DNA of 37,150 nucleotides from the IMG/VR virus record IMGVR_UViG_3300020183_000230, positions 1-37,150 of that record. One strand, 5' to 3'. This stretch comes from a virus. The translations under genes were made by a program, and so were the position numbers. This document shows positions 4,172 through 36,987 of the stretch, piece after piece. The notes beneath the pieces were generated by a model that worked only from the letters and a program-made list of their open reading frames with translations, made no database searches and had not been told where the DNA came from. Every line of letters begins with the position of its first letter. Position 1 is the first letter of the stretch.

Positions 4172-4179
4172 TATAAATA
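4172..4179 (-). promoter_or_regulatory. TATTTATA box ahead of the gene starting at 4166
   Basis: On the coding strand TATTTATA ends 5 bases before the ATG at 4166. On the opposite strand it reads TATAAATA, identical to the T4 late promoter octamer. The 42-base gap upstream of this gene is large for the block, which leaves room for a promoter. Whether this is a promoter (in either direction) or a translation signal cannot be told from sequence. Confidence 0.4.
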
Positions 4180-4208
4180 GGAAATTTTAGAGAATTTATA
4201 TAACTGAA

Positions 4209-5345
4209 TTAAAAATCAATTCTTACTTTGATAAGTAATTCATTATCAAACGATTTTTGTGTTGGTTTGCTTAATTTACCTATAGCTAAAAGTTCGTTAT
4301 TATCATTATATAATCCAACCGATGTCAAGTAAGTTCTAGGATTATTAATTAAATCTGGATAAATAATTGTACCTTTTGTTTTACCATCAGTACCATCTGA
4401 TACAAACGTAGGATTATTACTATAGTTAAATTCTTTGTTTTTAACTCTAACGAAATAGTTAGTCGAAGGAACAAATTCAGATTTACGTATTCCCATTAAA
4501 CCACTTGAACGTTTTAATGTCAAGAATAAATCGTGGGTCCAGAGTCTCCAATAACCAGCTCTAAATGGATTGGAACCGTTATTTGAATAAGTATTACGGT
4601 TTCTAATTTGAAATAATGAAGGAGTATTGACAGTTGATGTTATACCTACTACCGTGTCCAATTGTATCGCGTTAAATACGACTATGCCATTAGATGGGTA
4701 GAATAATCCAATTCCATTGTAAACCGGAGATCCATTCTTTAAATATGGAGTGGGTACTCCGTTTATAATTGAACCCGAAATTAAATTATAAACATTTTGT
4801 TGTTTATTAATAATTTGTGAATCGTCAATGAATGAAAATTTATTTGGAGAAATTGCTCCACTTAAGCAAATTTGTATTTGACCAGGATCGATTTGATCTT
4901 TAAATTTGTTTGAAGCAAAGTTCAAAACGTAAATAGCTTCGCTGTCTATAGTTGTATTTAAGCTTCCCGACGCAAAACTAAATAAATCGTCGCCTGGTTG
5001 TAATAATACATTCTTATACTGAGAATATATAACCTTAGTTTCATTGGCTAAGACAGGAGTGTCGTATGTCAATACATCAAATTTTGAACTACCGCTATTT
5101 GCATAATCTCCATACGCAATGTCAAAATATAAATCACTTCCAGAATATACATCGAGATAATATTGACCATTTTTAACGTCATATGGAGACGATCCGGTTA
5201 ATTGATTGCCTTGACCATAAACGCCTGATTGAGTAACAAATGTGGATTGTTGTACAAACAAACTACCGGTACCAAACATTCCAGAAGAAACTTGATTAAT
5301 TCTTCCGATTACAATATCGTCAGTGTTAAATTTGCTAAATATCAT
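4209..5345 (-). CDS. virion structural protein with shared VGLY C-terminal module
   Basis: A 378-residue protein starting MIFSKFNTDDIVIGRINQVSSG. The C-terminal about 45 residues (YLTSVGLYNDNNELLAIGKLSKP..., ending IKVRIDF) align by eye with the end of the 865-residue propeller protein at 871-3468: the pattern is Y-[IL]-T-x-V-G-L-Y, then L-[AV]-[AI]-[AG]-K-L-[AS]-x-P. This ending is familiar from virion proteins of T4-like marine phages (recollection of the family, not a search). The middle holds many short G-S-G segments. No membrane segment is present. It is 9 bases downstream of the gene at 5355-5993. The likely role is a tail or surface structural component assembled with its neighbours; the shared tail may be the part that docks to a common partner. 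The specific function is unknown. Confidence 0.75.
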   Translation of the reverse strand: MIFSKFNTDDIVIGRINQVSSGMFGTGSLFVQQSTFVTQSGVYGQGNQLTGSSPYDVKNGQYYLDVYSGSDLYFDIAYGDYANSGSSKFDVLTYDTPVLANETKVIYSQYKNVLLQPGDDLFSFASGSLNTTIDSEAIYVLNFASNKFKDQIDPGQIQICLSGAISPNKFSFIDDSQIINKQQNVYNLISGSIINGVPTPYLKNGSPVYNGIGLFYPSNGIVVFNAIQLDTVVGITSTVNTPSLFQIRNRNTYSNNGSNPFRAGYWRLWTHDLFLTLKRSSGLMGIRKSEFVPSTNYFVRVKNKEFNYSNNPTFVSDGTDGKTKGTIIYPDLINNPRTYLTSVGLYNDNNELLAIGKLSKPTQKSFDNELLIKVRIDF

Positions 5346-5354
5346 AGATTTTTA

Positions 5355-5993
5355 TTAAGTTGTTGGTACGGTTACTGTAACCGTTATAGATGTATTACCA
5401 CCACTTTCATTACCAATTATCGTAATGTTTGTAGTAGTAGTTTTTGCTAAACCGGCGTTTGGTATGAATCTAAATTTGTTTCCTACCACGGATTGTGAAG
5501 TTTGTGAAGATAGATCTCCAGTAAATGACGGTACAGTAGCCGACGTTGAATTTAAACTATTGGTTTCTGTTACAATTAATGTTCCAACATCTTTATTTGC
5601 TAGAATTGCTGTATATCCAAGTGTTACGTTGTATGTAGGATTTGTACTTGGACTAATTAAAATTTCACCTGTATAATTACGATCTACTGTAATTACAGTT
5701 TGTGCTACGCTTATTGTTGGAACCGCCGTTACACCATCATTTAATGTAACGAGTTTATATTTCATAAGTTGGGACTCGTCTGTAATTGGTTCCATTATAG
5801 GCGTATTACGAATTGATATATCATAGAAAGCGCTACCTAACGGATGATTCGGATTAAACTGTGTATAATCAATTTCATCGTCTGCAAGAGCGAAAGCGGT
5901 TATATTTAAACCGCCAGTTTTTGCTAAAATTTCACGTCCTTTTTTCGTTAATACTGCGTTAACAGTAAGAACATTGTTGTCTAAGTATGCCAT
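5355..5993 (-). CDS. T4-like-phage conserved structural protein with Ig-like C-terminal domain
   Basis: The chosen start is the ATG at 5993 (MAYLDNNVLTVNAVLT); extending to 5999 would need a TTG and adds only two residues. The first about 90 residues, with AVLTKKGREILAKTG, FALADDEIDY and NPNHPLGSAFYD, resemble a family I recognise from virion proteins of T4-like marine phages. Residues from about 95 to 212 form a Thr/Val/Ser-rich stretch with alternating hydrophobics (TISVAQTVITVDRNYTGEI, and ending NTSITVTVTVPTT) that looks like one or more Ig-like beta-sandwich repeats. Such domains often decorate phage capsids and tails and bind surface carbohydrates weakly. The gene is followed after 9 bases by the VGLY-module protein. 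The family assignment is moderately sure; the precise virion location is unknown. Confidence 0.75.
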   Translation of the reverse strand: MAYLDNNVLTVNAVLTKKGREILAKTGGLNITAFALADDEIDYTQFNPNHPLGSAFYDISIRNTPIMEPITDESQLMKYKLVTLNDGVTAVPTISVAQTVITVDRNYTGEILISPSTNPTYNVTLGYTAILANKDVGTLIVTETNSLNSTSATVPSFTGDLSSQTSQSVVGNKFRFIPNAGLAKTTTTNITIIGNESGGNTSITVTVTVPTT

Positions 5994-6038
5994 ATACAAT
6001 AATTATGTTTGATTTTTACTTTTTATCTAAAAAATATA

Positions 6039-9000
6039 TTATAAATTGTTTATATAAGTATTCAAACTTGCACTCGTACATTGAGAAGCTGAAAGTGGTA
6101 ATGATTTAAATAAACTTGTGGGATTACCAGCAGATCCCGTTAATTCACCATAAATTGGGAAATTATTTGAATCTATGTCTAAACTTAAAAACCCCGGAAT
6201 TGTTATTATAGGGTCGGATCCGTTAGGTAATCCGTTTCTATTTATCGTGGTAGTTTTATCATTTTTACCTTTAGTAAACGTATAATACTCTATTTTTGCA
6301 TTTTTAGGATTTACAAGCATTTTTATCCCATTTGTAATTAAATAGTTGGAGGACGAAACTGCGGTATAACTGTAATTTGAACCAGGCAAAGTTTTTTTAC
6401 TAACATGAAACCGTGAATAACCACTATTTTGTTCACCTTTATACAAATTTTTTAATTTTTTGCTACCTGTTACTTGAATATTATATCCATAAACTATACC
6501 TGCTGTACCAGTGGTACCCGACATTCCTTGAGTACTGTCGGGATTATTGTTTAAAGTATAACCGGATCCAGAACCTATTATTTCTATACGATTATAGGAT
6601 GATGTAAACGAAGATACATATCCATTTAAATTATTTCTAGAAACACCTCCCGAAATTCCACTAGTACCGGCAGTACCCGAAGTTCCACTACCACCTCCTC
6701 CGGAAGTTCCACTTGCGCCATTTCCAGAATTTGTATTATTTACTAAAAGGTAATAGTCTTTTTCAGATATCAAAGGAGTTTCTCTTACTAGAAACCCATT
6801 ATTGTTTAAATTAACAATTTTTCCATATTTACTAAATATAAAGTCTCTACTGTCAATTATATCTTTGATTTCAAACATAGAATAATTATAAGTGTTAAAA
6901 TCTTTTTTAAAGATATTTTCCAGTGTGTTAATTGTTGAATTACTTGATGTATTAGAAGTATTATAAAAATTTGTTCTAAGTTTAGCTTGGTTATCTATCT
7001 TTATAGACAATATATCTGAATTAGAAAAATCTATGTCTTTGAAATTAAACTTTATTCTTTCAAATAAACTAGGTTCTAATATTAAACCGGTTAATAAATT
7101 TACTCTGGATGGCTTCAAATTTTTAACAAAATCAAATATAGAAAAGTCTATATAAAATTTATATGTACTATATGATTCTTGAGGATATATGTATTTTTTG
7201 TTAAATTTTTTAAATTCTTTTTGTAAACTTATAAGTTCCGGATACTCTTGTGAATTTAAATATTTTGGATTTCCAATTATATTAGTAATGCCTTCTTTAC
7301 CGATAAAATCTTTAATTTTATTGTTTAAAAAATTATATGGTGAAATGCCGAATTGTACCAAACTCGAATCATCTCCAATAATATCACTAAATGTAGTTGA
7401 ATAATCATATGGTACTAAATTAGATGATATCGTTTCTGAAATTTTACTAATTTTATTATTTCCAGCAAAATTAGGTCCAAAATTATTTGTATTAATAGCT
7501 TGTTTAATTTTTAGTGTATCAAATTGATACGGAAATTCGTCTACATTTAGTGTAGCACAAATTGGTGAATCGAAATATTTTGACTTTTGTTTGAAATTAA
7601 AAGCTAGAAAATAATTATACGGCCAATAAGAATTTTGATTTAAAACAGAACTGCTTAGAGAAGCCGAGTTATATAAATTTATAGGTGTGTCGAAACTCCA
7701 CAAATAAAACAAATTACTATAAACTTCCGATTTACTTTCAATTGATATTGAATCTGTGTTATAAGAATGTTCTAGAAAGTCTGAATCGCTTATTGCGTCT
7801 TTAAATATCTTTATTTTGTCAATGTTACCGATAAATGTTGTAGAGCCAGAATAATTTCCTACAAAATAACTTCCGGATGAAAAATATTGATTTGTTTCGT
7901 AAGTAAAAATCTTTTCAGTTTTACTATTAAAAATTTGATCTTTACCATCATATTGATTTACTTCTAAAGTATACAAATGAGGGACATATCTCCTCAAATT
8001 TTCAATAAAAAATGATTGAGTTAAACTTTGCTTTATAGGCGAAGTTACAACGAAATCGCCATCATCCTCAATAACAAAATTATTAAATGATGGTTGATTT
8101 TCTAATATTAGAGATGGATATTGATTTGTGTGATAACTAGCACTTATTCTGGGAGAATCAAATACAAATCCGGGTAAAACTTGTCGTCTCACCATTGTAG
8201 TAAAAATATTTCCATTAAAAAGTGGAAGTTCCAAACTTACAATACTGGATGTTTTTTGGGTTTCTTTAGGCGTAAATTCGAAAATTAATTTACCGGAAAT
8301 ATCTTGTTTTGATTTTTTTAAATAAATTTTCCAATCTTGATTTGTTCTGTGTTTCGAAACTAAAGGTATTTTATCTTCAAAATTATAATCTTTAGAATTT
8401 AATTTAAAAGAAAATTCAACGGTGGATACACCTTGATATACAGCTGTATATTCAATACTCTTAGTTAAATTATTATTAAAATAATTTTCAGATTGAAATT
8501 CAGATTCAATAAAAACAGAATCGCTACCTGTGTGATTAAATGTTACGTAATTATCTTTACCAAAACTTAAAAAATATTTTAAGTCTTCATATTCATAAAA
8601 AGTACTTCTATTAGATAAAATATCAGAACTACCATATTCTTTTAACTGTAAAAGTTCTGATGGAATACCAAAAATTGTTCTGATTAAATCGAAGGATGTA
8701 GATGTACCTTTGGATTTGTAAATCGCACTTATATTATTCGTAAGTCTATTTAAAATCGACTTTGCATAATCAAAGTAAGAAGACGATAATGAACCTGTTG
8801 TTTCACTGTTATTAAAGTATAACTGATTTAAGTTACTTTGTTCAAATTTATTTATATCAACATTCCAATTTAATGAATTTAAAAGTTCTTCAACATAGTT
8901 TTTGGGGTAATAGTTAGAATCGTTTGTAGATATAGGATAATTTTTAGGAAACTTTTTTATGTATACCAATATATTGTCGAAAAAATGTCCAACCATTGCT

Positions 9001-10763
9001 GTAAATTTTATATAATCAGCGGATTCTATATCGGTTTTTACATATTCCGGTAACTGATATACTAAACTGTTAAAATTATTTTTATCAAAAGATGTTCCAT
9101 TTTCAATTTTTTCATTAATACTGGATGTGTTAAAGAACAAATATGCTTCGTAATCATCAAATGAATTTAATAAATTAATTTGTTCTTTGGTTTTACTTTT
9201 TAAATCCGACGAATAAGATGCAGAAATTGAGTAAACAGAACTATTGGCTTTCGTTTTTATTTGATTTTTTTCCAAATCTATTTTGTAGTATTGTAAAATT
9301 TTATTTTTAGCAACTTTAGTTCTTAGTTCCGCAGAAGAATAATTAATAAAATTGTTGAAATCGTTGAAATCAATAAATAAATCGTTTATTTTTTGTTTTA
9401 ATTTTACGTTAGCATAATCGAGTGTATTTTCGTTTAAATCTTCGAATTGTTGATTTGTCGCACTAATAGTTGGTACTTCGACGTTGAAATTAACACCGTT
9501 TAGAAAAACTTTTCTAGATAGTTGTTTTGTAAATAAATTAACCTTGAAATAAATGGGTGTTATAGAGATATTAGATATCCAACAAAAATTCTTTACTTCA
9601 TATTGTGTTGGTAAAGGTTGATCTAATTTTAATTGTATATTAATCGAATTTTCAGTCTTATTAAAATAACTTGTATGATTTAGTATTGTAAATAAATTGC
9701 CATTATCAAAATTTAATGCATTTTTATAAAAAGAATAAAAATTATTATAATAATCATCCAAAAGTTTTTCGACTTGTGGTAACAACCAATCTGTATAAAT
9801 TACTTTTGTAAATAAATTTAAAACCGTAATCAATGAAATTGAATTGAGAGAAGTACGTTCTAAAATTCTATCCTGACTAACTTTTTGTACAATTATTCTT
9901 ATTGAATCTAATATTTCCTCCTTTGTAAATTCAACATCGTTGTATCTATAAGAAAAATTTTTAATTTGTTCTGAAATACCAACGAATTTTTTAGTTTCCA
10001 ACACATCATCATATTGATTAATATTTGTTTTTATAATTTTATCAAACCCGTTATATGTGCTATAAATAAATTCTTGTAGTTCCGATTTCGATTTTAATCC
10101 TAATAATTGCGCAATTTCATATAAATTAAAACTATTTTCATTATTAGCAAAATTTTGTTCAATTGGATTATTTTCAACTATGTAGATAAAATCGTCTTCG
10201 ATTTGTAATAACAAATATTTTTTATCGGCAAACGTTCGAATTTTAATAGCATCTAATCTAGACTTTTCATTTTTAGTCTGATCAAATGCATAAGACAATC
10301 TTAATTCAGTTCTACTAGGCGAAATTTCTTTAACAACTAATTTATTCGTATTATTTCCAGCAATATTTCTAATAGGATTATAAAGTAAATAATACAGTCC
10401 CGGTCCAACTTCATTTGATTTTAAATCAAATTGTGAATGAACGAGTATTTGATCATTATATCTTACAACGTTTGTATTTGGATTTGCGTAATTATAACTT
10501 TGTAATTGATTATTTATGTCTCTGTAAGATCCCTGTACAACAGAATATGTTACTTTAGGAATAATTCTATTAAAACTTAAAGGATTTTGATTATTGTCAT
10601 ATAAAGTGAATTCTACAATATCATCGTCACCATCTCCAAAAAATCCCTTTTCAGGTACTAAAGTTTGTTCGTATAATTTTTGTAAATCTTCATTTAGATA
10701 TGAAGCACTTACAATGCCAACGTTCAAACTATTTTCGTTTATTGTTAAATAATCGTAAGGCAT
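6039..10763 (-). CDS. very large tail/baseplate protein with LamG-like region and collagen-like linker
   Basis: At 1574 residues this is the largest gene in the window. It starts MPYDYLTINENSLNVG at 10763, 1 base from its upstream neighbour. The N-terminal region has FFGDGDDDIVEFTLYD near residue 40. Around residues 678-697 lies YKSKGTSTSFDLIRTIFGI, a helical segment that I associate with large phage tail proteins. Roughly residues 740-1010 are beta-rich, with features of a LamG/concanavalin-like lectin fold (for example FIGNIDKIKIFKDAISDSDF). Near residues 1345-1372 is a Gly-Thr-Ser stretch (SGTSGTAGTSGISGG) like a collagen-type flexible linker, followed by a C-terminal domain of about 200 residues. 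Its place two genes downstream of gp6 and its size make it a candidate for the peripheral wedge or a long fibre, analogous in position to T4 gp7, but no sequence homology to gp7 is claimed. Confidence 0.75.
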   Translation of the reverse strand: MPYDYLTINENSLNVGIVSASYLNEDLQKLYEQTLVPEKGFFGDGDDDIVEFTLYDNNQNPLSFNRIIPKVTYSVVQGSYRDINNQLQSYNYANPNTNVVRYNDQILVHSQFDLKSNEVGPGLYYLLYNPIRNIAGNNTNKLVVKEISPSRTELRLSYAFDQTKNEKSRLDAIKIRTFADKKYLLLQIEDDFIYIVENNPIEQNFANNENSFNLYEIAQLLGLKSKSELQEFIYSTYNGFDKIIKTNINQYDDVLETKKFVGISEQIKNFSYRYNDVEFTKEEILDSIRIIVQKVSQDRILERTSLNSISLITVLNLFTKVIYTDWLLPQVEKLLDDYYNNFYSFYKNALNFDNGNLFTILNHTSYFNKTENSINIQLKLDQPLPTQYEVKNFCWISNISITPIYFKVNLFTKQLSRKVFLNGVNFNVEVPTISATNQQFEDLNENTLDYANVKLKQKINDLFIDFNDFNNFINYSSAELRTKVAKNKILQYYKIDLEKNQIKTKANSSVYSISASYSSDLKSKTKEQINLLNSFDDYEAYLFFNTSSINEKIENGTSFDKNNFNSLVYQLPEYVKTDIESADYIKFTAMVGHFFDNILVYIKKFPKNYPISTNDSNYYPKNYVEELLNSLNWNVDINKFEQSNLNQLYFNNSETTGSLSSSYFDYAKSILNRLTNNISAIYKSKGTSTSFDLIRTIFGIPSELLQLKEYGSSDILSNRSTFYEYEDLKYFLSFGKDNYVTFNHTGSDSVFIESEFQSENYFNNNLTKSIEYTAVYQGVSTVEFSFKLNSKDYNFEDKIPLVSKHRTNQDWKIYLKKSKQDISGKLIFEFTPKETQKTSSIVSLELPLFNGNIFTTMVRRQVLPGFVFDSPRISASYHTNQYPSLILENQPSFNNFVIEDDGDFVVTSPIKQSLTQSFFIENLRRYVPHLYTLEVNQYDGKDQIFNSKTEKIFTYETNQYFSSGSYFVGNYSGSTTFIGNIDKIKIFKDAISDSDFLEHSYNTDSISIESKSEVYSNLFYLWSFDTPINLYNSASLSSSVLNQNSYWPYNYFLAFNFKQKSKYFDSPICATLNVDEFPYQFDTLKIKQAINTNNFGPNFAGNNKISKISETISSNLVPYDYSTTFSDIIGDDSSLVQFGISPYNFLNNKIKDFIGKEGITNIIGNPKYLNSQEYPELISLQKEFKKFNKKYIYPQESYSTYKFYIDFSIFDFVKNLKPSRVNLLTGLILEPSLFERIKFNFKDIDFSNSDILSIKIDNQAKLRTNFYNTSNTSSNSTINTLENIFKKDFNTYNYSMFEIKDIIDSRDFIFSKYGKIVNLNNNGFLVRETPLISEKDYYLLVNNTNSGNGASGTSGGGGSGTSGTAGTSGISGGVSRNNLNGYVSSFTSSYNRIEIIGSGSGYTLNNNPDSTQGMSGTTGTAGIVYGYNIQVTGSKKLKNLYKGEQNSGYSRFHVSKKTLPGSNYSYTAVSSSNYLITNGIKMLVNPKNAKIEYYTFTKGKNDKTTTINRNGLPNGSDPIITIPGFLSLDIDSNNFPIYGELTGSAGNPTSLFKSLPLSASQCTSASLNTYINNL

Positions 10764-10764
10764 A

Positions 10765-19257: not shown

Positions 19258-19595
19258 TCACCTTTACTTATGGTAATTACCTCTTCCATCAATTGTTTAC
19301 GATCTTCTTCACTAAGTATCATAGCATTACCTTCACCGGTTTCTTGTCCTTTAGCTACCAATCGTTGTACAACAGCTGCCAATTTAATTAACTGTTCATC
19401 ATTTTTAACACCCACATCATAATAATCTTTTATCAACGGGACAATTATAACAGCGTCATTTACAGTTTTAATTAGTGTTCTTAACTCAGAAATCAAAATA
19501 TCTATTTGATCCTTTTTATTTTCTGAGTTTTTAACTATATCTTTGCAAAGATTTGAAAAATTCTTACCTTTATAAATTTCAAAGTTTAAATCCAT
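19254..19595 (-). CDS. conserved small protein at head of the baseplate block
   Basis: The start is taken at the ATG at 19595 (MDLNFEIYKGKNFSNLCKDI). Reading further back to 19622 requires a TTG that lies inside the terminator hairpin, so it is rejected. The 113-residue product is mostly helical: a D-Q-I-D-I-L-I-S-E-L-R-T-L-I helix, V-I-V-P-L-I-K-D-Y-Y-D-V-G-V-K-N-D-E-Q-L-I-K-L-A-A at the middle, and a C-terminal EEDRKQLMEEVITISKGE. I recall related small proteins next to spike genes in large T4-like phages, but no function is established to my knowledge. It is the first gene after a terminator and a TATTTATA box, and its stop overlaps the spike start by four bases, so it probably opens the virion transcript. 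A chaperone or small baseplate role is possible. Confidence 0.75.
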   Translation of the reverse strand: MDLNFEIYKGKNFSNLCKDIVKNSENKKDQIDILISELRTLIKTVNDAVIIVPLIKDYYDVGVKNDEQLIKLAAVVQRLVAKGQETGEGNAMILSEEDRKQLMEEVITISKGE

Positions 19596-19600: not shown

Positions 19601-19608
19601 TATAAATA
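19601..19608 (-). promoter_or_regulatory. TATTTATA box ahead of the gene starting at 19595
   Basis: On the coding strand CTATTTATA ends 5 bases before the ATG at 19595 and directly follows a terminator hairpin. A fresh initiation site is expected here because the upstream transcript should end at that hairpin. The opposite strand reads TATAAATA, the T4 late promoter octamer. Confidence 0.45.
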
Positions 19609-19610
19609 GA

Positions 19611-19638
19611 AAAACCACTCAAATAATTGAGTGGTTTT
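19611..19638 (-). terminator. hairpin terminator after the sigma-like gene
   Basis: A perfect 12-bp stem (AAAACCACTCAA pairing with TTGAGTGGTTTT) with a 4-base loop lies 20 bases past the stop at 19659. In the leftward direction it ends in a short T run (TTTTTC). It separates the sigma operon from the baseplate block and could also act weakly rightward. Confidence 0.8.
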
Positions 19639-19658: not shown

Positions 19659-20633
19659 TTAAAGTGTACCTTCATTGTGATAATTTTCAACTATTGTATC
19701 TTGATAACCTTTCATTTTGTTTATAATCTTGGTTATCTGTTGAGTTTTACAATTACTCATCTCTCGTATATACAAATATAATGTCTTTTTATTGAAATTC
19801 TCTAATCTATCACAATTTCTAAATAATTCAATTACCGCATATGCTATATGCAAGTCTTTAACTTTATTAAATATTTTATGTACATTTTTTTCCCAATATG
19901 CAACTAAAAGTTTCATAAACTCTTGTGTTTGTACATTTTTATAATGTGCATCTTCAGTTTGTAAACAGACAGACGTTTCACTTGGAGTATCACTAATATC
20001 TACATGTTGATTATATCTCTTATAGTTGTTATTATTGTGAAAAATAAGATAGTTTTTTGCTACAATACTAAAATAACTAAATGCTTTACCCTTACCTGCT
20101 TGAAATTTATGTATGTTAGACACCAAATGACTTACCGTTTCTTTTTGAATTTCTAATGGACTGTTGTCAAAATAAGTAAACTTAAATGTATTGAATATGT
20201 TTTCAACCAGCTTTTCGAAACTAAACTTAATTTTGTTTTCGTAAATTTCATTACGTTTTCTATCACACGTTTCGGCATTATATTCTATAATAGCTTCTTC
20301 TGTTTTTTTACTAAAATATATCTTTTCTTTTTTATTTCTACCACGTCTTCTTTTTTTTGGAGCATCATCATTATCTTCTACAAATTCTTCGGATTCATGT
20401 TTTTCTGTTTCTATCTTTACGTCAATTGTTCTCGGAATTTTAATACCAAGTTTATTTTTTTTTGGAGTTTTGTTTTCTTTTTTCTTTATCAAAACCAAGT
20501 CAATTTTAATCTCAGGCTTTTTAGTTTTCTTCACACTATTAACCTTTAATTTTTTATTAAATTTTTGTTTCTTACTAGAAGACTTTTTAAGTTTTGTCTT
20601 TTTCATCAAAATTTCTTGGTTTGTCATTATCAT
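19659..20633 (-). CDS. putative RNA polymerase sigma factor for late genes (gp55-like)
   Basis: Up to 324 residues. Residues 1-110 are an extremely Lys-rich, low-complexity N-terminal extension (PKKRRRGRNKKEK near 92-104). From about 112 to 210 the sequence resembles sigma-70 region 2 as found in late sigma factors of T4-like phages: FSFEKLVENIFNTFKFTYF, then NIHKFQAGKGKAFSYFSIVA followed by KNYLIFHNNNNYKR, which corresponds to the F-x-P-x-x-G-x-x-F-x-x-Y-x-x-x-x-I-R core. The remaining C-terminal region is helical (about 238-310). Such factors direct host polymerase, with a sliding clamp and co-activator, to late promoters. The start is uncertain: ATGs at 20633, 20627 and 20606, with only the last having a weak AAGAAA. 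The first overlaps the upstream gene by 47 bases. The family assignment is by eye and moderate. Confidence 0.65.
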   Translation of the reverse strand: MIMTNQEILMKKTKLKKSSSKKQKFNKKLKVNSVKKTKKPEIKIDLVLIKKKENKTPKKNKLGIKIPRTIDVKIETEKHESEEFVEDNDDAPKKRRRGRNKKEKIYFSKKTEEAIIEYNAETCDRKRNEIYENKIKFSFEKLVENIFNTFKFTYFDNSPLEIQKETVSHLVSNIHKFQAGKGKAFSYFSIVAKNYLIFHNNNNYKRYNQHVDISDTPSETSVCLQTEDAHYKNVQTQEFMKLLVAYWEKNVHKIFNKVKDLHIAYAVIELFRNCDRLENFNKKTLYLYIREMSNCKTQQITKIINKMKGYQDTIVENYHNEGTL

Positions 20634-21085: not shown

Positions 21086-22087
21086 TTAAAAACTAAACAT
21101 TCCTCTTACACCGGGAACTCTTTTTCTAGGTTTTTCTACTTCTACTATTTTCTCAACAATTTTCTCTACCGGTTTTTCCACTTCTATTACTTTTTCAACG
21201 ATTTTTTCAACAGGTTTTTCAACAATAACTTCTTTAATTATTTCTTTTATTTCTTTTGGTTCTTCTTTTTTGGTTTCTTCATAAAGTTCATAATCTTTTT
21301 CTGATTGTAAATCTACTCTTTTTAATGAAGTATTATAGGCTAATAGTAAAACTATGGCTAATGGATCAAATACGCCAATTAATAATATTATAAACCACTT
21401 AACAACTGTTTGTATAGTTGTATTAAATTCCTGTGCTACAAACTTAAACGTAGTGATATCCTTTTTAGAACTATTGTCCGTTTTTAAATTAAATATTTCT
21501 TCATCTAATTTACCAACTTTATCACCGGAAACTTTTAATTTTTCATTTTCAGTTTCCATTTGTTTATTTAAACCTTCAATTTGTTCATTTATTTGATTTT
21601 GAAGATTTTGCATTGCGATCGGATTTCTTGCAATTAAAGCATTTGTCATACTTTCACTTAATCTGCCTTCTTGACTACTTCTTAACTTAAACAAATTATC
21701 AATTGCTTGTTTTGTAGAGTCAATTTTCTTAGTTTCTTGACTTTTTTGTTCTTCTAAAGCAACTATCTTACTGTTAGATAATTCTGTTTCTAATGAACTC
21801 TTTTGAAATGCCGCGGCCAAAAAACCAAATATACCCAACGAAGTTATACAAATTAAGACAAACACGGCTACGGTCATATAGGTTTTTAACAGTATGTTAG
21901 CCTTATACCAGTTTCTAAATAACCAACTGGTAGACACTAACTTACCCAATTCCAAAGATACTGCCATTATCATAGCTGCTATTGTTGCGCCTGAAAACAA
22001 TAAACCAATACCATAAACACTAAAGTAAGCGGCACATCCAGCTATAAGCATAGAAGTTGCTATTACGAGGTGTTCTAATTTAATCAT
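21086..22087 (-). CDS. multi-pass membrane protein with coiled coil and VEKPVEK-type tail
   Basis: The start is taken at the ATG at 22087 (MIKLEHLVIATSMLIAGCAA); the longer frame from 22150 would run through the hsp20 terminator. The 333-residue product has three hydrophobic segments in the first 95 residues (about 5-28, 32-50 and 70-94). A long charged coiled coil follows (about 98-215, with KLKVSGDKVGKLDEEIFNLK), then a fourth hydrophobic segment near 232-258 (WFIILLIGVFDPLAIVLLLA). The C-terminal tail repeats E-K-P-V-E-K-I-V-E-K (about 285-322) and ends in RKRVPGVRGMFSF. Topology suggests the coil lies between membrane segments on one side and the basic tail in the cytoplasm. It could be a phage inner-membrane protein for host takeover or assembly at the membrane; no enzyme motif is visible. 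Confidence 0.75.
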   Translation of the reverse strand: MIKLEHLVIATSMLIAGCAAYFSVYGIGLLFSGATIAAMIMAVSLELGKLVSTSWLFRNWYKANILLKTYMTVAVFVLICITSLGIFGFLAAAFQKSSLETELSNSKIVALEEQKSQETKKIDSTKQAIDNLFKLRSSQEGRLSESMTNALIARNPIAMQNLQNQINEQIEGLNKQMETENEKLKVSGDKVGKLDEEIFNLKTDNSSKKDITTFKFVAQEFNTTIQTVVKWFIILLIGVFDPLAIVLLLAYNTSLKRVDLQSEKDYELYEETKKEEPKEIKEIIKEVIVEKPVEKIVEKVIEVEKPVEKIVEKIVEVEKPRKRVPGVRGMFSF

Positions 22088-22090: not shown

Positions 22091-22098
22091 TATAAATA
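22091..22098 (-). promoter_or_regulatory. TATTTATA box ahead of the gene starting at 22087
   Basis: TATTTATA on the coding strand ends 3 bases before the ATG at 22087 and lies just past the hsp20 terminator, where new initiation would be needed. The opposite strand reads TATAAATA. Confidence 0.42.
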
Positions 22099-26405: not shown

Positions 26406-26942
26406 TTATTTCCAAACATAAGTTTTAATTTGCCAATTCGATTTATTCAATGAAATAAGAGTTGTAGCACTTGACGGATTATAAACATATATGTCAGAAA
26501 AACTTAAAAACGATACTTTTACATAAGTTGAATTTGAAGTAACTGTAGACAATTGTCTATAATTTTCATTCATACAACTTGATATATCGATTTCATCATT
26601 ATTTAAAAATGAACCATCATTGCTATTACACAACAAAACAACTCTGACCAAAGCAGGTTTACTACCTAAACCGTGAGAAAAAGTATAAAATTTACCTGTT
26701 TCATAAAAATTGATGGTATTACTGTCAGTTGCTACATTATACGATATTCCGAATGGAAATCCGGATAAACCAGAGTCTAAAATATAACCTCTAACATCAC
26801 TTAGTTGTGATTGTCTTGAATATTTTGAACCCCCAGTATTTTCAACGATCATTAATTGGTCGTTATCTTTTATAGACGAATAACTAGATAATTGACTTAC
26901 CTTTATTAATTGTACATTTAAACTGTTACATGGCGTTGACAT
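26406..26942 (-). CDS. short tail fibre / receptor-binding protein with lectin-like C-terminus
   Basis: A 178-residue protein starting MSTPCNSLNVQLIKVSQLSS. Residues 1-55 align with the N-terminus of the S74 fibre downstream (Q-[IL]-K-V-S-x-L...Y-S-S...D-x-x-L-x-I-E...S-R-[QR]-S), so both probably dock to the same tail part. The C-terminal domain (about 60-178) has FYTFSHGLGSKPALVRVVLL, then C-N-S-N-D-G and N-N-D-E-I-D-I. This pattern is familiar from small beta-sandwich domains at the ends of phage tail fibres and related to H-type lectins, where carbohydrate binding is expected. The gene lies 5 bases ahead of the S74 fibre gene and 12 bases after the stop of the 908-residue gene, with a TATTTATA box in the gap. 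Confidence 0.75.
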   Translation of the reverse strand: MSTPCNSLNVQLIKVSQLSSYSSIKDNDQLMIVENTGGSKYSRQSQLSDVRGYILDSGLSGFPFGISYNVATDSNTINFYETGKFYTFSHGLGSKPALVRVVLLCNSNDGSFLNNDEIDISSCMNENYRQLSTVTSNSTYVKVSFLSFSDIYVYNPSSATTLISLNKSNWQIKTYVWK

Positions 26943-26946: not shown

Positions 26947-26954
26947 TATAAATA
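26947..26954 (-). promoter_or_regulatory. TATTTATA box ahead of the gene starting at 26942
   Basis: TATTTATA on the coding strand ends 4 bases before the ATG at 26942 and begins immediately after the stop codon of the preceding gene. The opposite strand reads TATAAATA. The 12-base gap is almost entirely this box. Confidence 0.4.
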
Positions 26955-30421: not shown

Positions 30422-30716
30422 TTGTATCTAATAGTTTTTTGAGTTGACTAACACGCTTACAGAACTCGTAGAGTTCTTTTTCCAAATAGAAATTGTAAAT
30501 GTTTTCTACATTATCCTTGAATGAAGAATATTCTAAAACCACAATAAAGTCCGATCTATCAAAACAAAATATTTTTACAGTTTGTAAATTATTTACCACC
30601 GCATAATGTACGGATGTTATGATATGTTCAGTTAATTTGACTTTATTGCTTACAATAAACTTTTCCATTTCGTCATAATCCGATGGCAACACTAATGGAG
30701 TAACTATTTCTGTCAT
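30369..30716 (-). CDS. hypothetical protein overlapping phoH
   Basis: A 115-residue protein starting MTEIVTPLVLPSDYDEMEKF at 30716. It has a small alpha/beta body: helix 13-30, strand TVKIFCFDRSDFIVVLEYSS (about 45-64), then helices including NFYLEKELYEFCKRVSQLKK. The end is very basic (KKQKKRHKSKNSPE). The 3' end overlaps phoH by 53 bases in another frame, so the basic tail is encoded by the same DNA as the basic phoH N-terminus. This is a strong sign of translational coupling and of a shared function with PhoH, perhaps as partner. I do not recognise a family. The gene comes right after the terminator at 30749-30776, and its start is preceded by CTATTTATTTGGTGA, a near match to the TATTTATA box. 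Confidence 0.78.
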   Translation of the reverse strand: MTEIVTPLVLPSDYDEMEKFIVSNKVKLTEHIITSVHYAVVNNLQTVKIFCFDRSDFIVVLEYSSFKDNVENIYNFYLEKELYEFCKRVSQLKKLLDTNEQKKQKKRHKSKNSPE

Positions 30717-30723
30717 TCACCAA

Positions 30724-30731
30724 ATAAATAG
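30724..30731 (-). promoter_or_regulatory. TATTTAT-like box ahead of the phoH pair
   Basis: CTATTTAT on the coding strand ends 7 bases before the ATG at 30716 and follows a terminator. It lacks the final A of the full octamer, so the opposite strand does not read TATAAATA exactly. Confidence 0.3.
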
Positions 30732-30748: not shown

Positions 30749-30776
30749 AAAGGCGTTACCGTGAAGTAACACCTTT
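30749..30776 (-). terminator. rho-independent terminator after the small-gene operon
   Basis: In the leftward direction AAAGGTGTTAC pairs with GTAACGCCTTT (one G-U pair, 6-base loop), followed by a continuing T run (TTTTTTTG overall). On the + strand the same position is a C-A mismatch, so the hairpin is better in the leftward direction. It lies 18 bases past the stop at 30794. Confidence 0.85.
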
Positions 30777-30793
30777 CATTTAAAGTTGAGTTT

Positions 30794-31012: not shown

Positions 31013-31014
31013 AA

Positions 31015-31215: not shown

Positions 31216-31294
31216 ATTATCTAATTAGATATTTTTGATATTTAATAATTGGTAAAATGTTAACAATGTAAGATTACCAGCCTCACATAATTTA

Positions 31295-31322
31295 ATTATA
31301 CATACATTGTAACTACAGTCAA
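31295..31322 (-). promoter_or_regulatory. strong sigma70-like promoter of the small-gene operon
   Basis: Leftward TTGACT (31322-31317), a 16-base spacer and TATAAT (31300-31295): 5 of 6 and 6 of 6 matches to consensus. The predicted start is near 31288, giving a leader of about 70 bases before the ATG at 31215. The first transcribed bases include TATGTGAGGCTGGTAATC, which shares GTGAGGCT with the hsp20 leader. Confidence 0.75.
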
Positions 31323-31330
31323 ATCTTTTT

Positions 31331-31690
31331 TTATTCTAAATTTCTATTATAGAACTCTACATTTTTATGTTTAACAACTGCTTCAGGATAAAGTACCTTA
31401 TATTCATCTAATGAACGGTTATAAACTCTTACTCCACCAAATGGATAACTTGGTTCACCTGGATTGTAATATGAAATCAAGTATACATCGTGAGACTCTG
31501 GATAATAAGCCGTAAACACTCGTCTACCTTTTTCCACAGTTTTATCTAGTTTAAGTTCTTCTGGAAGTAGACTAAATACTAAGTGTGCTGAACCGCCTTG
31601 TTTATAAATCTTTTTTATAATGTTTAAATCTTTGCTTAATTTTGATATTTCTTTATCAACTTCTATGATTTTTTTCTTCATTCTTTTCAT
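31331..31690 (-). CDS. hypothetical protein with N-terminal helix
   Basis: A 119-residue protein starting MKRMKKKIIEVDKEISKLSK at 31690; a second ATG at 31681 is equally possible. Residues 1-32 are a basic amphipathic or coiled helix. The rest looks beta-rich: HLVFSLLPEELKLDKTVEKG, RRVFTAYYPESHDVYLISYY, then N-P-G-E-P-S-Y-P-F-G-G-V-R-V-Y-N. I recognise no family. It faces the large rightward gene at 31746 across a 55-base divergent gap. In that gap the leftward strand reads TATAAATA at 31740-31733, a perfect T4 late promoter octamer placed so that transcription would begin about 35 bases before this start. The sigma70-like promoter at 31322 begins 9 bases past its stop. Confidence 0.72.
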   Translation of the reverse strand: MKRMKKKIIEVDKEISKLSKDLNIIKKIYKQGGSAHLVFSLLPEELKLDKTVEKGRRVFTAYYPESHDVYLISYYNPGEPSYPFGGVRVYNRSLDEYKVLYPEAVVKHKNVEFYNRNLE

Positions 31691-31732
31691 TTTAACATAT
31701 TAAATATATTTGTAAACTTAGTTTATTTACAA

Positions 31733-31740
31733 TATTTATA
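31733..31740. promoter_or_regulatory. TATAAATA / TATTTATA box in the divergent gap
   Basis: Leftward this octamer reads TATAAATA, the T4 late promoter box, well placed for the gene starting at 31690. Rightward it reads TATTTATA and ends 5 bases before the ATG at 31746, like the other boxes listed. This is the only site in the window where the late octamer points at a gene in the classical orientation. Confidence 0.5.
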
Positions 31741-31745
31741 TTATT

Positions 31746-34682
31746 ATGACGTTTACTATTGACAAAAAAAGTCCTTATTACGAACACGATCTTAAACTAA
31801 TGCGTAAGGCCAATGTAGCATTTGAAAAAATGCTATTAGAGCTAGCGATGTTAGACGAATATATAGAACAAGGCAAATTACATTTATTAGAATATAAGTT
31901 AAGTAAAAATACCCGCAGAGTCTATAATGAAATAAAACATCAGAATAATTCTAATTTTAAAAAGTTACTAGAAGAAGCTGCTGCTACTGATGCAACAACT
32001 GCTGCCAATCCAGCTTTGGATACCGGCAAAAATATTTTGGGTTTAATAAATAAATTTCATCAAGACAATAGTGCTGAAATTGGATTATTATCCTCGGATG
32101 ATACATTTAAAACATCAATACCCAAAAATATTGGTGCACAACCAGGCATTCTTAAAAAAATAACATCCAAAGCAATTGGCGCGGGTAGTAAATTAGGACA
32201 GATGACAGTAAATTTTTTGATTTCTATTTTGACAGGCGCTTTTCAAAAAATGGAGAAGGCGTATTCTCAATTTAAAAGCGACTTTTTAGATGCTAAAAAA
32301 CAGGATACCGCATGGAAATTTATCTACAGCAAAATGGGTCCAAGTATGACTGTAGCAAAAAGAAAAGAAGATGGTACCATTGAATATGTAAAAGATTCAT
32401 CTGGACCCGGTTTTTTAAATTGGTTAAAAGACTTTGTAACTAAAAATCCAAAATGGGCAAATGTTGTTGTTGGTATATTAATCAACGGTGCAAAATTCGC
32501 TTCAGTAACATTAGCAGGTGCAACAGGTGGAGCTTCACTGGCGGTAGGTGTAATCGTTGGTTTGATTTTAAGAACTCTCGTAGGTAGATTAAAGGGTGAA
32601 AGTTGGGGTACCGCTATTAAGAAAGCTGTAATAGTAACTGGTATGTCATTAATCGGTGGTGCTATAACTAAAGGATTGTTTAGTTATTTTAAAGGAGGAG
32701 GATTTTTAGATGGTGCTAAATCATATTTCACAGGAGTTCCTGGCACAGATCAAGCAGCAAGTGCTATATCAAATCAAACACTTGATGCAAAAGCAATTGC
32801 GTACGCAAAAGCAATGAAAGGTGCCGCGAATTTGTCTCAATTCAAACAAACTCCCGAATATAATGAAATGATAAAAAATCTTTCTATATCAGATTCTAGT
32901 CGAAGTACTGACGCAGCTGCGTCAAAAATTGCAACATTTTTTGCAAATAAAGATAAAGTATCTGATGTACAGTTACAATCATTTTTTAAATCCGGTTTAT
33001 CTGGTAGACTCGCTATATTAACAAAACAAGGAGTACCAACGGATAAAATCTTTTCTAATACAGCTAACACAGTTAAATCAGCAATTCAACAAGCTGAAAT
33101 TGATATGGAAACATTAAAAATGCCAAACATATCAAATTTAACTTCACAACTACATAAAGCATTTCCTCCAGATCAACCACCTACTGCTGACAGTTTATTG
33201 AAGTTCTTTACTAATAAAGGACTGAATCCTGAAAGTGCGAAGGATTTAGCAAAATCAATTACAGGTGGTGATAATGCTTCCGCAGCAGAAAAATTCAGAG
33301 ATTTGTGGAGAATGGGTGGTACTTCAGGAGATACAACAATATTCAATAAGTTGAAACTTATGGGAGACCTTCCAAAAGATCAATATGATAAATTGTTGGG
33401 TAGTGCCGATGCAACGGATGCAGCAACAACTGTTGTGGGTGGTCTTAAAAATTTAAGCGGATCACAATTAAAAGATATGGTAAGCAAAGCAGGTGGTCCC
33501 GATAAATTTTTGAATCAATTAGAAGAAAAAAATCCAGAGTTATATCAAAAGCTCCTGGCAGCGACAGATCGATACACACAAGGGCAAGGCGGTCCGGACT
33601 TCCAACTTAAAAATTTATTGTATAGACCCGAAAATGAAGTGTCCGTGCGAACTTTTAATAGAATTATAAACGCAGCCGGTGGTTTACCACAATCTACGAC
33701 TGGAGATGTAGTTACACAAGCTGCTGGTGTTGCTGATGCAGCAACAGCTGTTGTGGGTGGTCTTAAAAAATTAACTACACCACAGTTAGAAGATTTACTA
33801 AAAAAATCAGGTGGAGCTATAGCATTGAGAAACGCACTAGAAGATGACATTGCATATTCTGCTAAATTGACAGCAGCCGCTGAAAAGTTGTATCCAATGA
33901 ATGATTCAGATCGTGCAATACAGTATATATTTAATCAAGCAGCAAGAGGCGATGTAGAACAACTACAAAACCTTTTAAACGCAACCGGTGGTTTACCACA
34001 ATCTGTGATAGATACAGAAACAGCAGCACAACAAGCTTTACAAGTATCTGGAGGATTTAAACTTGCAAATCCTGAAGTAGCAAAACAAATTTTAGCAAAA
34101 GCTGGATTGCCAGCTGACGCAACATCCGAAAGTGTGTTCAGCAAAGGAGTAAAAGGTGTATTTGGTACAATGAGTATGGATCCAGAGCAACCATTTGCTG
34201 AAAGTACAAATAAACTGAATAGATTTCTTTTGGATTATGTTAAAGAAAGTTCATCACAAGGACAATCCGGTCTTTCAGCAACTGGATTTTTTAACTATTT
34301 ATCATCAAAAACAGGTGTACCTCTTAAAAGTTTGTCACAAATGATTGCGGGTGAAAATGCTGGAGAAACAGCTTTGGTAAAACAACATTTAACTCAAGTT
34401 TTAAATCAAGCTGCTGCAAATGCAGATGCTGGTGGAACTGCGAAAGATACTTTGTACGCATTATCAAGAGAAATGATGGGAAATTTGTCTGAAAAAATGC
34501 AACAATATCCTACACTTATGAGAGACTTTGGAGTTTCTGCTGCAGATGTTGCTAAACAGTCTGCTATTAATCAAGCAAAGAATGCTGGAACACAAATGAT
34601 ACAATCGGCTCCTCAATCTCTGGGTTCACTTGGATTAGACGAGTCAATTTATAAAAAAATGATTAAAAATTTATACTTATAA
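31746..34682 (+). CDS. large putative internal/ejected virion protein with membrane segments and helical repeats
   Basis: A 978-residue protein. Residues 1-77 are a charged helical leader ending FKKLLEE, then AAATDATTAAN. L75-E76-E77 before A78 fits the (L/I)-x-E cleavage rule of T4-type prohead protease. Residues about 237-315 hold long glycine-rich hydrophobic stretches (NVVVGILINGAKFASVTLAG, SLAVGVIVGLILRTLVG and AVIVTGMSLIGGAITKGLF) that could span a membrane. From about 340 to 960 the chain is Ala/Gln/Lys-rich and helical, with repeated units about 103-106 residues apart (VVGGLK near 561 and 667; GGLPQS near 643 and 746). This suits a protein packed in the head and delivered into the cell envelope, but a tail tape measure or other structural role cannot be excluded. 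The neighbour downstream is 3 bases away. Confidence 0.65.
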   Translation: MTFTIDKKSPYYEHDLKLMRKANVAFEKMLLELAMLDEYIEQGKLHLLEYKLSKNTRRVYNEIKHQNNSNFKKLLEEAAATDATTAANPALDTGKNILGLINKFHQDNSAEIGLLSSDDTFKTSIPKNIGAQPGILKKITSKAIGAGSKLGQMTVNFLISILTGAFQKMEKAYSQFKSDFLDAKKQDTAWKFIYSKMGPSMTVAKRKEDGTIEYVKDSSGPGFLNWLKDFVTKNPKWANVVVGILINGAKFASVTLAGATGGASLAVGVIVGLILRTLVGRLKGESWGTAIKKAVIVTGMSLIGGAITKGLFSYFKGGGFLDGAKSYFTGVPGTDQAASAISNQTLDAKAIAYAKAMKGAANLSQFKQTPEYNEMIKNLSISDSSRSTDAAASKIATFFANKDKVSDVQLQSFFKSGLSGRLAILTKQGVPTDKIFSNTANTVKSAIQQAEIDMETLKMPNISNLTSQLHKAFPPDQPPTADSLLKFFTNKGLNPESAKDLAKSITGGDNASAAEKFRDLWRMGGTSGDTTIFNKLKLMGDLPKDQYDKLLGSADATDAATTVVGGLKNLSGSQLKDMVSKAGGPDKFLNQLEEKNPELYQKLLAATDRYTQGQGGPDFQLKNLLYRPENEVSVRTFNRIINAAGGLPQSTTGDVVTQAAGVADAATAVVGGLKKLTTPQLEDLLKKSGGAIALRNALEDDIAYSAKLTAAAEKLYPMNDSDRAIQYIFNQAARGDVEQLQNLLNATGGLPQSVIDTETAAQQALQVSGGFKLANPEVAKQILAKAGLPADATSESVFSKGVKGVFGTMSMDPEQPFAESTNKLNRFLLDYVKESSSQGQSGLSATGFFNYLSSKTGVPLKSLSQMIAGENAGETALVKQHLTQVLNQAAANADAGGTAKDTLYALSREMMGNLSEKMQQYPTLMRDFGVSAADVAKQSAINQAKNAGTQMIQSAPQSLGSLGLDESIYKKMIKNLYL

Positions 34683-34685
34683 AAT

Positions 34686-36398
34686 ATGAACGAAAAAAAT
34701 TATAGTGGTGAATTATACCAGCAATTAATATTGGATGAAGGTTTATTTGATAAACTTAAAGGTTCATTGGGTATAAAGGGTAAAAAATTAACGGGAGACA
34801 ACTTAGATAAATTAGAAACAAATATCACACAATTATTAGGTAATATTGCTAAAGAATTAGGCGCGGTAGATTCATTAGAATTAGTCAAAAATTTAGAAAA
34901 ATATAAAACCGATGGTATTATTACAGACGATATAGCTAAGTATATTACAGATTTAAACAATTTATTAAACTCGATAAAAACAAATAAATCAAAATATACA
35001 ACTGCTACATCTGGTACAGCAGGACAAACAGGTACAGCAGGGCAAACAGGCACATCAGGGCAAACAGGCACATCTGGAGAAACAGGTACTTCCGGTTCAG
35101 ATGTAGTCCAACCCCCAGTTGCCGGTGGAGATTACGATAATATCAATATTTCCGATTTAAGGGTAGGCGATAATTTAGGCGACGATATTAAAGTAGGTCA
35201 AATTGATGCTTCAACTCTAAGTGGTATTCAAACCGATTTAAAAAATTTATATAATCAACTACCACAATCTGCAAGATTTAAATTGGATAATATACCAATT
35301 AAACTTCCACAAACAATAAGAAGAGTAAAACCGCCTGGTTTTGCTCCTACAATACCAATATCCGAAGAGTTAGCTCATTTTGATGATACACAAAATGTAG
35401 ACAATTTTAAAAAGACATTTGATGCTGTACTCAAAAAGTATAATGGTAAATTTGGCGATCCAAAAATAGGTTGGGAAGATTTACAAAAATTGGTAGCCAC
35501 TCTGTCTGTAAACGGAATGTTTAATGATCCTTTATTTGGAAAGTTATTTACAGCTTATATTACACTAAAAGCAGGCGGTTCATTAAACAGTCTAAGTACA
35601 ACGCCAAGTGGAGAAGGTACATCTGGTACCGGCGGACAAACGGGTACCGGCGGACAAACGGGTACCGGCGGACAAACGGGTACCGGCGGAAAAGATGGTG
35701 GCACATCTGGTACAACAGGTGGTGGTACTAGTGGTGGGACTGGAGCTACCGACGAAGCAGAATTAACAGAACTTGATTTAAAAAAATTTGTTGCATATTA
35801 TTCACAATTAATAAGAATACAAACCGAATTGAAAAAAGATCTGGGCGCTGATTTAAAAATAAATAAAGATGTCAATAGATATTATTCAATGTTGAAAAAT
35901 AGTTTAGTGTCGTTGCCTTTGATAGCTCACATCACAACAAAAGATACACCTACAACCAAAAAACTAAAGAGAAAATTTATAATTAGATTTTTGTGGGAAT
36001 TAAAAAACACACCTGCTATAGGTCAGGCAAAAGATTTAATCGGTAATGTAAATAAACTAGAAGAACAAGAAGCTTCGGTTGGATCAGGCAATACAGATGT
36101 TAATATACTAGCAAAATTTGCAGCGCAATCCAGCACATTAATTGATGGTATTAAAAAAAGTCTGCCAACAATGGTGATGTTGTTAAAAGCACTTTCAAAA
36201 AGTAAAATATCAACTCCGGAAGATAAAATGTTATTAACTATAATAAAAACATTTTTGAAATCTGTGATTAATAAAAATACAAACGATATTAAACCCGATC
36301 AAAAAATAGCTGATTCGGTAAAAAATTTATCATATACAAAGCCAGTTTCTGAAAGTTCAAATTACTTTAAAACCAGTGATTATAAATACTTTTTTTGA
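34686..36398 (+). CDS. putative virion protein with two collagen-like linkers and a CTS-like N-terminus
   Basis: A 570-residue protein in three helical domains (about 1-105, 140-305 and 353-560) joined by two flexible linkers: a T-G-T-[AS]-G-Q type stretch at 108-136 and a G-T-G-G-Q-T repeat at 308-352. The N-terminus MNEKNYSGELYQQLILDEGL resembles the capsid-targeting sequences of T4 internal proteins (a short amphipathic peptide ending in F/L-I-x-E before A/G). L16-D17-E18 before G19 fits the prohead protease rule. The C-terminus ends in aromatic SDYKYFF. It is coupled to the 978-residue gene by a 3-base gap and is on the opposite strand to the tail block. The likely role is as a head-packed or head-associated partner of that protein; this is inference. 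Confidence 0.65.
   Translation: MNEKNYSGELYQQLILDEGLFDKLKGSLGIKGKKLTGDNLDKLETNITQLLGNIAKELGAVDSLELVKNLEKYKTDGIITDDIAKYITDLNNLLNSIKTNKSKYTTATSGTAGQTGTAGQTGTSGQTGTSGETGTSGSDVVQPPVAGGDYDNINISDLRVGDNLGDDIKVGQIDASTLSGIQTDLKNLYNQLPQSARFKLDNIPIKLPQTIRRVKPPGFAPTIPISEELAHFDDTQNVDNFKKTFDAVLKKYNGKFGDPKIGWEDLQKLVATLSVNGMFNDPLFGKLFTAYITLKAGGSLNSLSTTPSGEGTSGTGGQTGTGGQTGTGGQTGTGGKDGGTSGTTGGGTSGGTGATDEAELTELDLKKFVAYYSQLIRIQTELKKDLGADLKINKDVNRYYSMLKNSLVSLPLIAHITTKDTPTTKKLKRKFIIRFLWELKNTPAIGQAKDLIGNVNKLEEQEASVGSGNTDVNILAKFAAQSSTLIDGIKKSLPTMVMLLKALSKSKISTPEDKMLLTIIKTFLKSVINKNTNDIKPDQKIADSVKNLSYTKPVSESSNYFKTSDYKYFF
35006..35090 (+). repeat. 15- to 18-bp-period collagen-like repeat, first linker
   Basis: Degenerate copies of ACAGGTACAGCAGGGCAA-type units encode G-T-A-G-Q-T and G-T-S-G-Q-T. 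The period is 18 bases. The sequence divergence between copies shows that this block is older than the second linker. Confidence 0.8.
35625..35692 (+). repeat. 18-bp perfect tandem repeats, second linker
   Basis: GGTACCGGCGGACAAACG begins at 35625, 35643 and 35661, with a fourth copy at 35679 that diverges at its end. The copies are identical, which points to recent expansion, and the block is far richer in G+C than its surroundings. It encodes G-T-G-G-Q-T. Confidence 0.92.
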
Positions 36399-36444
36399 AA
36401 ATTTCTAACTATATATTAGAAAACTGATATTAATATTATAAACT

Positions 36445-36735
36445 ATGAGTGATGTTACAAAATTTACAGATGAAGAAATGCAAGAAATTGCGGGATTACA
36501 AGCTAAATATCAACAAAAGATATTTGAACTGGGTCAACTACAACTACAAGAAATTGATCTAGAACAAACAAAAAAGCTTTTAGCTGATAAAAAAACTGAA
36601 TTGTTAGATAATTGGAAAACCGTTCAAAAAGAAGAAGAAGTACTTCTTAATAAATTGGCCGGTAAGTACGGTAATGGTAGTCTAAACTTAAAAGACGGTA
36701 CATTCAAGCCAGCTCCCCAACAAACATCTGTTTAA
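36445..36735 (+). CDS. small coiled-coil protein
   Basis: A 96-residue protein starting MSDVTKFTDEEMQEIAGLQA. Residues 8-75 form one long coiled coil with heptad-like Leu/Ile spacing (QKIFELGQLQLQEIDLEQTK), followed by AGKYGNGSLNLKDGTFKPAP and a short tail. The shape resembles small chaperone-like or prefoldin-like hairpins and is common in T4-like phages near structural genes, but I cannot name the family. It follows the rightward structural pair after 46 bases, in which a weak AT inverted repeat (TTTCTAA at 36402 and TTAGAAA at 36416) is seen. It is closed by a strong terminator. Confidence 0.78.
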   Translation: MSDVTKFTDEEMQEIAGLQAKYQQKIFELGQLQLQEIDLEQTKKLLADKKTELLDNWKTVQKEEEVLLNKLAGKYGNGSLNLKDGTFKPAPQQTSV

Positions 36736-36752
36736 TATAACCAATGCAAAAT

Positions 36753-36783
36753 AAAAGCCGGTCTTTATTGACCGGCTTTTTTG
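36753..36783. terminator. bidirectional terminator between convergent genes
   Basis: AAAAGCCGGTC pairs with GACCGGCTTTT around the loop TTTATT. A T run follows rightward (six Ts), and in the leftward direction TTTTATTTTG follows the stem. It lies 18 bases past the stop of the gene at 36445-36735 and immediately past the stop of the convergent gene at 36785-36961. Confidence 0.92.
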
Positions 36784-36784
36784 T

Positions 36785-36961
36785 TTATTGAGTTGAACTT
36801 GCTTCCTCAACAATTGCTTTAATCTCGGATTCAATTTCTTTCATCTTTTCCTTGTAACCCGCAGCAACATCCTTAAAATCCTTCTTTACATATAGAAGTT
36901 TTTCGGTCAATTCATATACCTTTTGTTCTGCTTGTTGTTTTGTTAATTTGATATTACTCAT
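36785..36961 (-). CDS. small coiled-coil protein, 58 residues
   Basis: A short leftward gene with ATG at 36961 and TAA at 36785. The product MSNIKLTKQQAEQKVYELTE... is one continuous amphipathic helix with a charged heptad pattern up to about residue 52 and a short polar tail ending in SSTQ. It has no family that I recognise. The open frame fills the gap between the shared terminator and the divergent gene at 36988 exactly, which supports it as real. No Shine-Dalgarno is visible in the AT-rich 26 bases before the start. Its resemblance in length and helix content to the convergent 96-residue protein is only general. Confidence 0.68.
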   Translation of the reverse strand: MSNIKLTKQQAEQKVYELTEKLLYVKKDFKDVAAGYKEKMKEIESEIKAIVEEASSTQ

Positions 36962-36987
36962 AATTTATTTATTAAATATTTATTTTT

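Follow-up and report, generated by a model that had tools for sequence, protein, structure and literature searches.

The window is the entire record (G000), a stretch of 37,150 nt. It contains the octamer TATTTATA a few bases upstream of five ATG codons on both strands, a variant, TATTTATT, near three further ATGs, and a gene for a probable gp55-type sigma factor (Table 1). An earlier sequence-only reading had placed the octamer 5, 5, 3, 4 and 5 nt before five starts and a form without the final A before two others, and all of these were confirmed. The box before 4166 sits within a dyad, TCCTAT..ATAGGA (4167-4182), an altered form of which is retained in the related contig G003 (TTCTATTTATAATAGA). 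In the four relatives, genes in a setting like that of the gene starting at 841 carry the box 18-20 nt upstream.

Table 1 Putative promoter boxes, terminator-like hairpin and probable sigma factor gene of the window
Feature	Position	Strand	Remarks
Putative leadered late promoter box TATTTATT	860..867	-	18 nt before ATG at 841
Putative late promoter box TATTTATA	4172..4179	-	5 nt before ATG at 4166; boxed at 5 nt in 5/5 orthologs
Putative late promoter box TATTTATA	19601..19608	-	5 nt before ATG at 19595; 5/5 orthologs boxed
Intrinsic-terminator-like hairpin and T-run (AAACCACTCAATTATTTGAGTGGTTTTT)	19610..19637	-	Directly upstream of the box at 19601-19608
Probable late sigma factor	19659..20633	-	gp55-type region 2 (residues 105-228) and extra C-terminal helical domain
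Putative late promoter box TATTTATA	22091..22098	-	3 nt before ATG at 22087; terminator 5'; 4/5 orthologs boxed
Putative late promoter box TATTTATA	26947..26954	-	4 nt before ATG at 26942; 3/3 orthologs boxed
Putative late promoter box variant TATTTATT	30723..30730	-	6 nt before ATG at 30716; terminator 5'
Putative late promoter box TATTTATA	31733..31740	+	5 nt before ATG at 31746; divergent intergenic gap; 2/3 orthologs
Putative late promoter box variant TATTTATT	36977..36984	+	3 nt before ATG at 36988

Thirty-three starts were tested in the window, using dinucleotide-shuffled upstream regions (1000 shuffles) as the control. TATTTATA lies 2-7 nt upstream of 5/33 starts, against a shuffle mean of 0.14 and a maximum of 2 (0/1000 reach 5), and TATAAATA, its reverse complement, of 0/33. 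The total of 17 copies of TATTTATA in the window is not unusual (10.8 expected; 7/100 shuffles as high). Because the window is a complete record, the genome-wide count was made on relatives. Scans in which the gp6-like protein and the sigma gene served as queries yielded 160 loci, and 46 non-redundant loci (847 kb) were analysed; the long related contigs G001, G003, G008 and G009 span 99-304 kb, and the genomes are 60-70 % AT. Genes of the relatives were called by a simple coding-potential script rather than a standard caller. The octamer was found 2-7 nt upstream of 13/94, 15/110, 13/84 and 24/328 starts in G001, G003, G008 and G009, respectively, where shuffle means were 0.09-0.47, and in none of the five genomes did any shuffle reach the observed count. 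The comparison with shuffled upstream regions proposed alongside the first observation thus placed the count far above chance in the window and in the four relatives. Among AT-only octamers in the 46 loci, TATTTATA had the highest share of copies with the ATG of an ORF of at least 60 codons 2-6 nt downstream (77/314, 24.5 %), compared with a mean of 1.6 % over such octamers and 3/314 for TATAAATA. In the 14 nt 5' of starts in G001, G003, G008 and G009, moreover, no other 7-mer is as frequent as TATTTAT, with strand asymmetries of 26/7, 27/4, 20/2 and 56/9 in the same order.

A set of 102 boxed genes gave the consensus [A/C]TATTTAT[A/T], mostly 3-5 nt before the start with a mode of 4, and no -35-like signal was found upstream of the box in these genes. 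The start was ATG in 102/102, the box search having been restricted to ATG. Ortholog sets carry the box in 5/5, 5/5, 4/5, 4/4 (several sets) and 3/3 members, while about half of the pairs show differences in the bases flanking it. Mismatches between orthologs in codons 2-12 of boxed genes number 208/157/397 at codon positions 1/2/3, and this excess at third positions directly after the boxed ATGs indicates that the starts are genuine. Boxed genes from several different families (window 4166; G001, G003, G008 and G009) open with MIK[FL], encoded by ATGATYAAR, which possibly reflects a start-region preference of leaderless mRNAs.

Boxed genes had been described in the sequence-only reading as mostly the first after a terminator or a gap, and both kinds of count agree with that description. 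Of the same-strand boxed genes, 0/72 follow the preceding gene by less than 11 nt, compared with 158/446 unboxed genes (Fisher p 5e-13), a difference that is partly forced because the box needs room. Terminators lie 5' of 17/49 boxed genes (35 %) and of 9/229 unboxed ones (4 %; p 1e-8). The compared genomes share ancestry, so the counts are not independent and these Fisher values overstate independence. The hairpin before the gene starting at 19595 occupies the equivalent place in G001, G003, G008 and G009 with a different sequence, its T-run ends 1 base 5' of the box in 5/5 genomes, and the distance from the end of the T-run to the ATG is 13-14 nt. Some short divergent gaps, such as those of 39 and 49 nt in G001, have an outward box at both genes. 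Near the major capsid protein, portal and terminase genes of the window's lineage the box is absent, and transcription of these unboxed structural genes may start further upstream or at a promoter of another kind. In the leader of the boxless capsid gene (G001 81644, G003 51654, G008 60694, G009 17634), a weak Shine-Dalgarno sequence accompanies the inverted repeat CTCGCA...TGCGAG.

Homologs of the gene at 19659-20633 were identified in Flavobacterium phage immuto (78174-78872), Mel-JY01 and LR756508, the last two of which showed no clear box in the parts examined. Matches to the predicted structure of the product are sigma factors throughout, with gp55 in the T4 open complex (7d7c_F) first (Z 11.4, residues 105-228), the model itself being of modest confidence (pLDDT 60 overall, better from residue 105; pTM 0.33). 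Profile-profile comparison (hhalign) with nine gp55 proteins aligned 97 columns (E 9e-5, probability 59 %), while the lineage-only alignment, made without distant members, was unsupportive (E 0.17), so that the relation to gp55 is a distant one. The gp55 PHROG phrog_234 has the immuto homolog as its sole match (E 0.008), and the gene in G003 is weakly matched by Pfam sigma region 2; PHROG and Pfam gave no significant sequence match to the window's protein, and a PDB sequence search with the sigma profile gave none. Neither a gp45-type clamp (PF02916) nor IF3 was found in these records, many of which are fragments. The structural and profile matches make the product a probable gp55-type sigma factor with an extra C-terminal domain; the sequence-only reading had already named a gp55-like sigma in the window.

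Together, these observations indicate that [A/C]TATTTAT[A/T] is very probably a coding-strand late promoter read by a phage gp55-type sigma and that in the window's lineage it usually abuts the start codon and yields leaderless mRNAs. The box would act as a -10-like element without a -35 in a clade of T4-related phages, recognised by host RNA polymerase together with the product of 19659-20633, a pairing suggested by the co-occurrence of sigma gene and box. The leading idea of the sequence-only reading, a coding-strand -10-like late promoter, is thereby well supported by the comparative evidence, while its leaderless start is inferred from promoter geometry.

Recognition by a host sigma or some other factor, without a specifically late role, is unlikely. 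The phage sigma assignment is weak by sequence and the boxed genes include some of unknown function, but the box has no -35 and its sequence departs from TANNNT, and promoters of the host type, TTGACW-TANNNT, are present in the same genomes. Evidence against it also comes from immuto, whose shared proteins are roughly 30-55 % identical to those of the window's lineage and which has both the sigma gene and the same box. Its boxes concentrate at structural genes, where they leave leaders of 16-30 nt in front of terminase, portal, sheath, tail completion, hub and tape, and several boxed orthologs occur in the window's lineage. The immuto late boxes are separate from the early TATATTTAG boxes of this phage, which differ from the late box and lie outside the structural regions in 17/17 cases. 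In the early genes of immuto (MW353175.1 62-77 kb, L199) a repeated GTTG...TATATTTAG promoter of the Bacteroidetes -33/-7 type is located 21-30 nt before the ATG.

The possibility that TATTTATA is an AU-rich translation-initiation signal in the mRNA, substituting for Shine-Dalgarno and comparable to the A-rich sites of Bacteroidetes, had been raised from the start and has little probability left. The box does occupy the Shine-Dalgarno position, its distance from the start varying little (3-5 nt), and genes with a near box have no Shine-Dalgarno (0/102); since the box fills the usual place of that sequence, its absence there is not independent evidence. A translation signal would not, however, account for the gap of at least 11 nt that separates every same-strand boxed gene from its upstream neighbour or for terminators directly 5' of the box. 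Nor would it explain why immuto and relatives of the window have the same box at 13-54 nt upstream, where a separate Shine-Dalgarno or A-rich site often accompanies it, or why other immuto genes carry a different box. Sheath and tail-completion genes of the relatives have both a Shine-Dalgarno sequence and the box, the latter 24-54 nt upstream, and a Shine-Dalgarno-like tetramer is present in 14/43 genes boxed at least 11 nt upstream versus 26/274 genes that have room for a box but lack it (p 2e-4). The immuto box is identical, including the A/C rule, and usually lies 13-35 nt upstream, with predicted short A-rich leaders providing an A-rich ribosome site; only 3/30 of its boxes are within 7 nt of the start, against 79/128 in the window's lineage (p 3e-7). 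A box that accompanies a leader in one branch, or a leader with Shine-Dalgarno in the other, argues against a pure translation signal.

Antisense late promoters, in which TATAAATA on the opposite strand would drive transcripts away from the gene, are very improbable. The sequence-only reading had offered them and had noted that the box, read on the opposite strand, gives exactly the T4 late octamer; that relation holds. The arrangement is nevertheless strand-specific and tied to the downstream ATG, many of the transcripts would run into an upstream terminator or gene, and immuto, with its homologous sigma gene, likewise uses TATTTATA on the coding strand. On the coding strand TATAAATA occurs 2-7 nt before starts at chance level, and in the 46 loci, the long contigs and the shuffle test it was not enriched before starts, so antisense promoters are not needed. 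The box is read the same way round as that of T4 and departs from TATAAATA in two central bases, and the mirror relation appears incidental. An AT-rich coincidence or gene-caller artefact, which the base composition of the genomes might suggest, is ruled out for practical purposes by shuffle counts below those observed in five genomes and by the third-codon-position excess that confirms the starts.

For a late promoter read by the phage sigma, the T4 late box offers a measure of the transcript start, since TATAAATA spans -13 to -6 (PMC1524935). With this spacing, a distance of 5 would make the A of the ATG the +1 position, and at distances of 4 and 3 the transcript would start 1-2 bases inside the codon. 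On these grounds late transcripts of the window's lineage, where the box is usually 3-5 nt before the start, would have their 5' ends at the AUG or no more than two bases away from it and would be translated by the host as leaderless mRNAs, while in the Flavobacterium-phage branch, with the box usually 13-35 nt upstream, they would carry short A-rich leaders. The boxed genes have the features of leaderless types, namely a -10-like box some 10-12 bp ahead of the predicted start, ATG as the start codon and no Shine-Dalgarno.

A second promoter class in the same genomes, TTGACW-N16-18-TANNNT, is followed by an ATG 6-9 nt after the -10 (in the early regions of G009 and G003, for example L187 and L176). 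Among the 35 copies of TTGACT having an ATG within 60 nt, 24 fit this spacing, compared with none for control hexamers. In canonical sigma70 geometry such transcripts would start at or within about 3 bases of the AUG. Both classes abut the ATG, so both appear to be leaderless here, early genes as well as late ones, as judged from promoter spacing. The TTGACW-TANNNT type argues against a Bacteroidetes host. Host searches by genome-contig scans with the sigma alignment, and with a tmRNA-tag pattern in the GTDB collection, gave no match. The relatives encode a tmRNA with the tag A[EK][ED]NV[VI]SYDFSY..V..AA (L165:2451-2834, L177:757-1144, L185:12191-12571), and some carry many tRNAs.

The proposed system resembles T4 late transcription by gp55 from TATAAATA, as described in PMC7892883 and PMC1524935, in its 8-bp -10-like element, lack of a -35, gp55-like region 2 sigma and placement before structural genes. 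It differs in the TATTTATA core preceded by A/C, which departs from the TATAAATA consensus, and in a near-zero leader, whereas in a T4 control TATAAATA lay 14-28 nt upstream with Shine-Dalgarno in 8/8. Compared with gp55, the window's sigma is also extended at its N terminus and carries an additional C-terminal domain, a longer helical one at the end where the gp55 family has its clamp-binding motif. T4 gp55 works with gp33 and the gp45 clamp, and a gp45-type clamp was not detected here. Aeromonas phage Aeh1 is another T4-like phage with a diverged late box (CTAAATA) matched by a diverged gp55, but its box sequence is different and the available part of the report on it (PMC1524935) does not mention leaderless placement. 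The boxes found here in immuto, [AC]TATTTAT[AT], and its homologous sigma gene make it another parallel, although its leaders, A-rich ribosome site and a host with another early promoter set it apart. Leaderless genes with an adjacent -10, the TA-led type, are common in Actinobacteria and Deinococcus-Thermus, where the -10 lies about 10 bp before the start (PMC3160421, PMC12340547), an arrangement like that of the leaderless mRNAs predicted here; those genes are, however, bacterial and read from TANNNT by a host sigma, and the late class here has a different box. The late promoters of giant phages are likewise short elements (phiKZ TATG, AR9 AACA-N6-TA/G), but these are read by phage multisubunit RNA polymerases, and AR9 mRNAs have leaders of 26-491 nt (PMC5312081). 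No earlier description of a phage late promoter TATTTATA, or of leaderless T4-type late genes, was found in the open-access literature.

It seems reasonably likely that a T4-related lineage moved both its early expression, dependent on host sigma, and its late expression, dependent on phage sigma, to leaderless mRNAs by means of promoters abutting the start, while a leadered Flavobacterium relative has the same box and sigma gene; the switch would probably have followed a change to a host competent in leaderless translation. The box is likely to be the late-promoter consensus of immuto and of a large freshwater group of uncultured phages, distant relatives of T4 from lakes. Related phages that use one sigma box either with a leader or leaderless provide a natural comparison, through which the evolution of gp55-type sigma specificity and the adaptation of phages to the translation initiation of their hosts could be tested, and the strictness of the box aids the annotation of start codons and operons.
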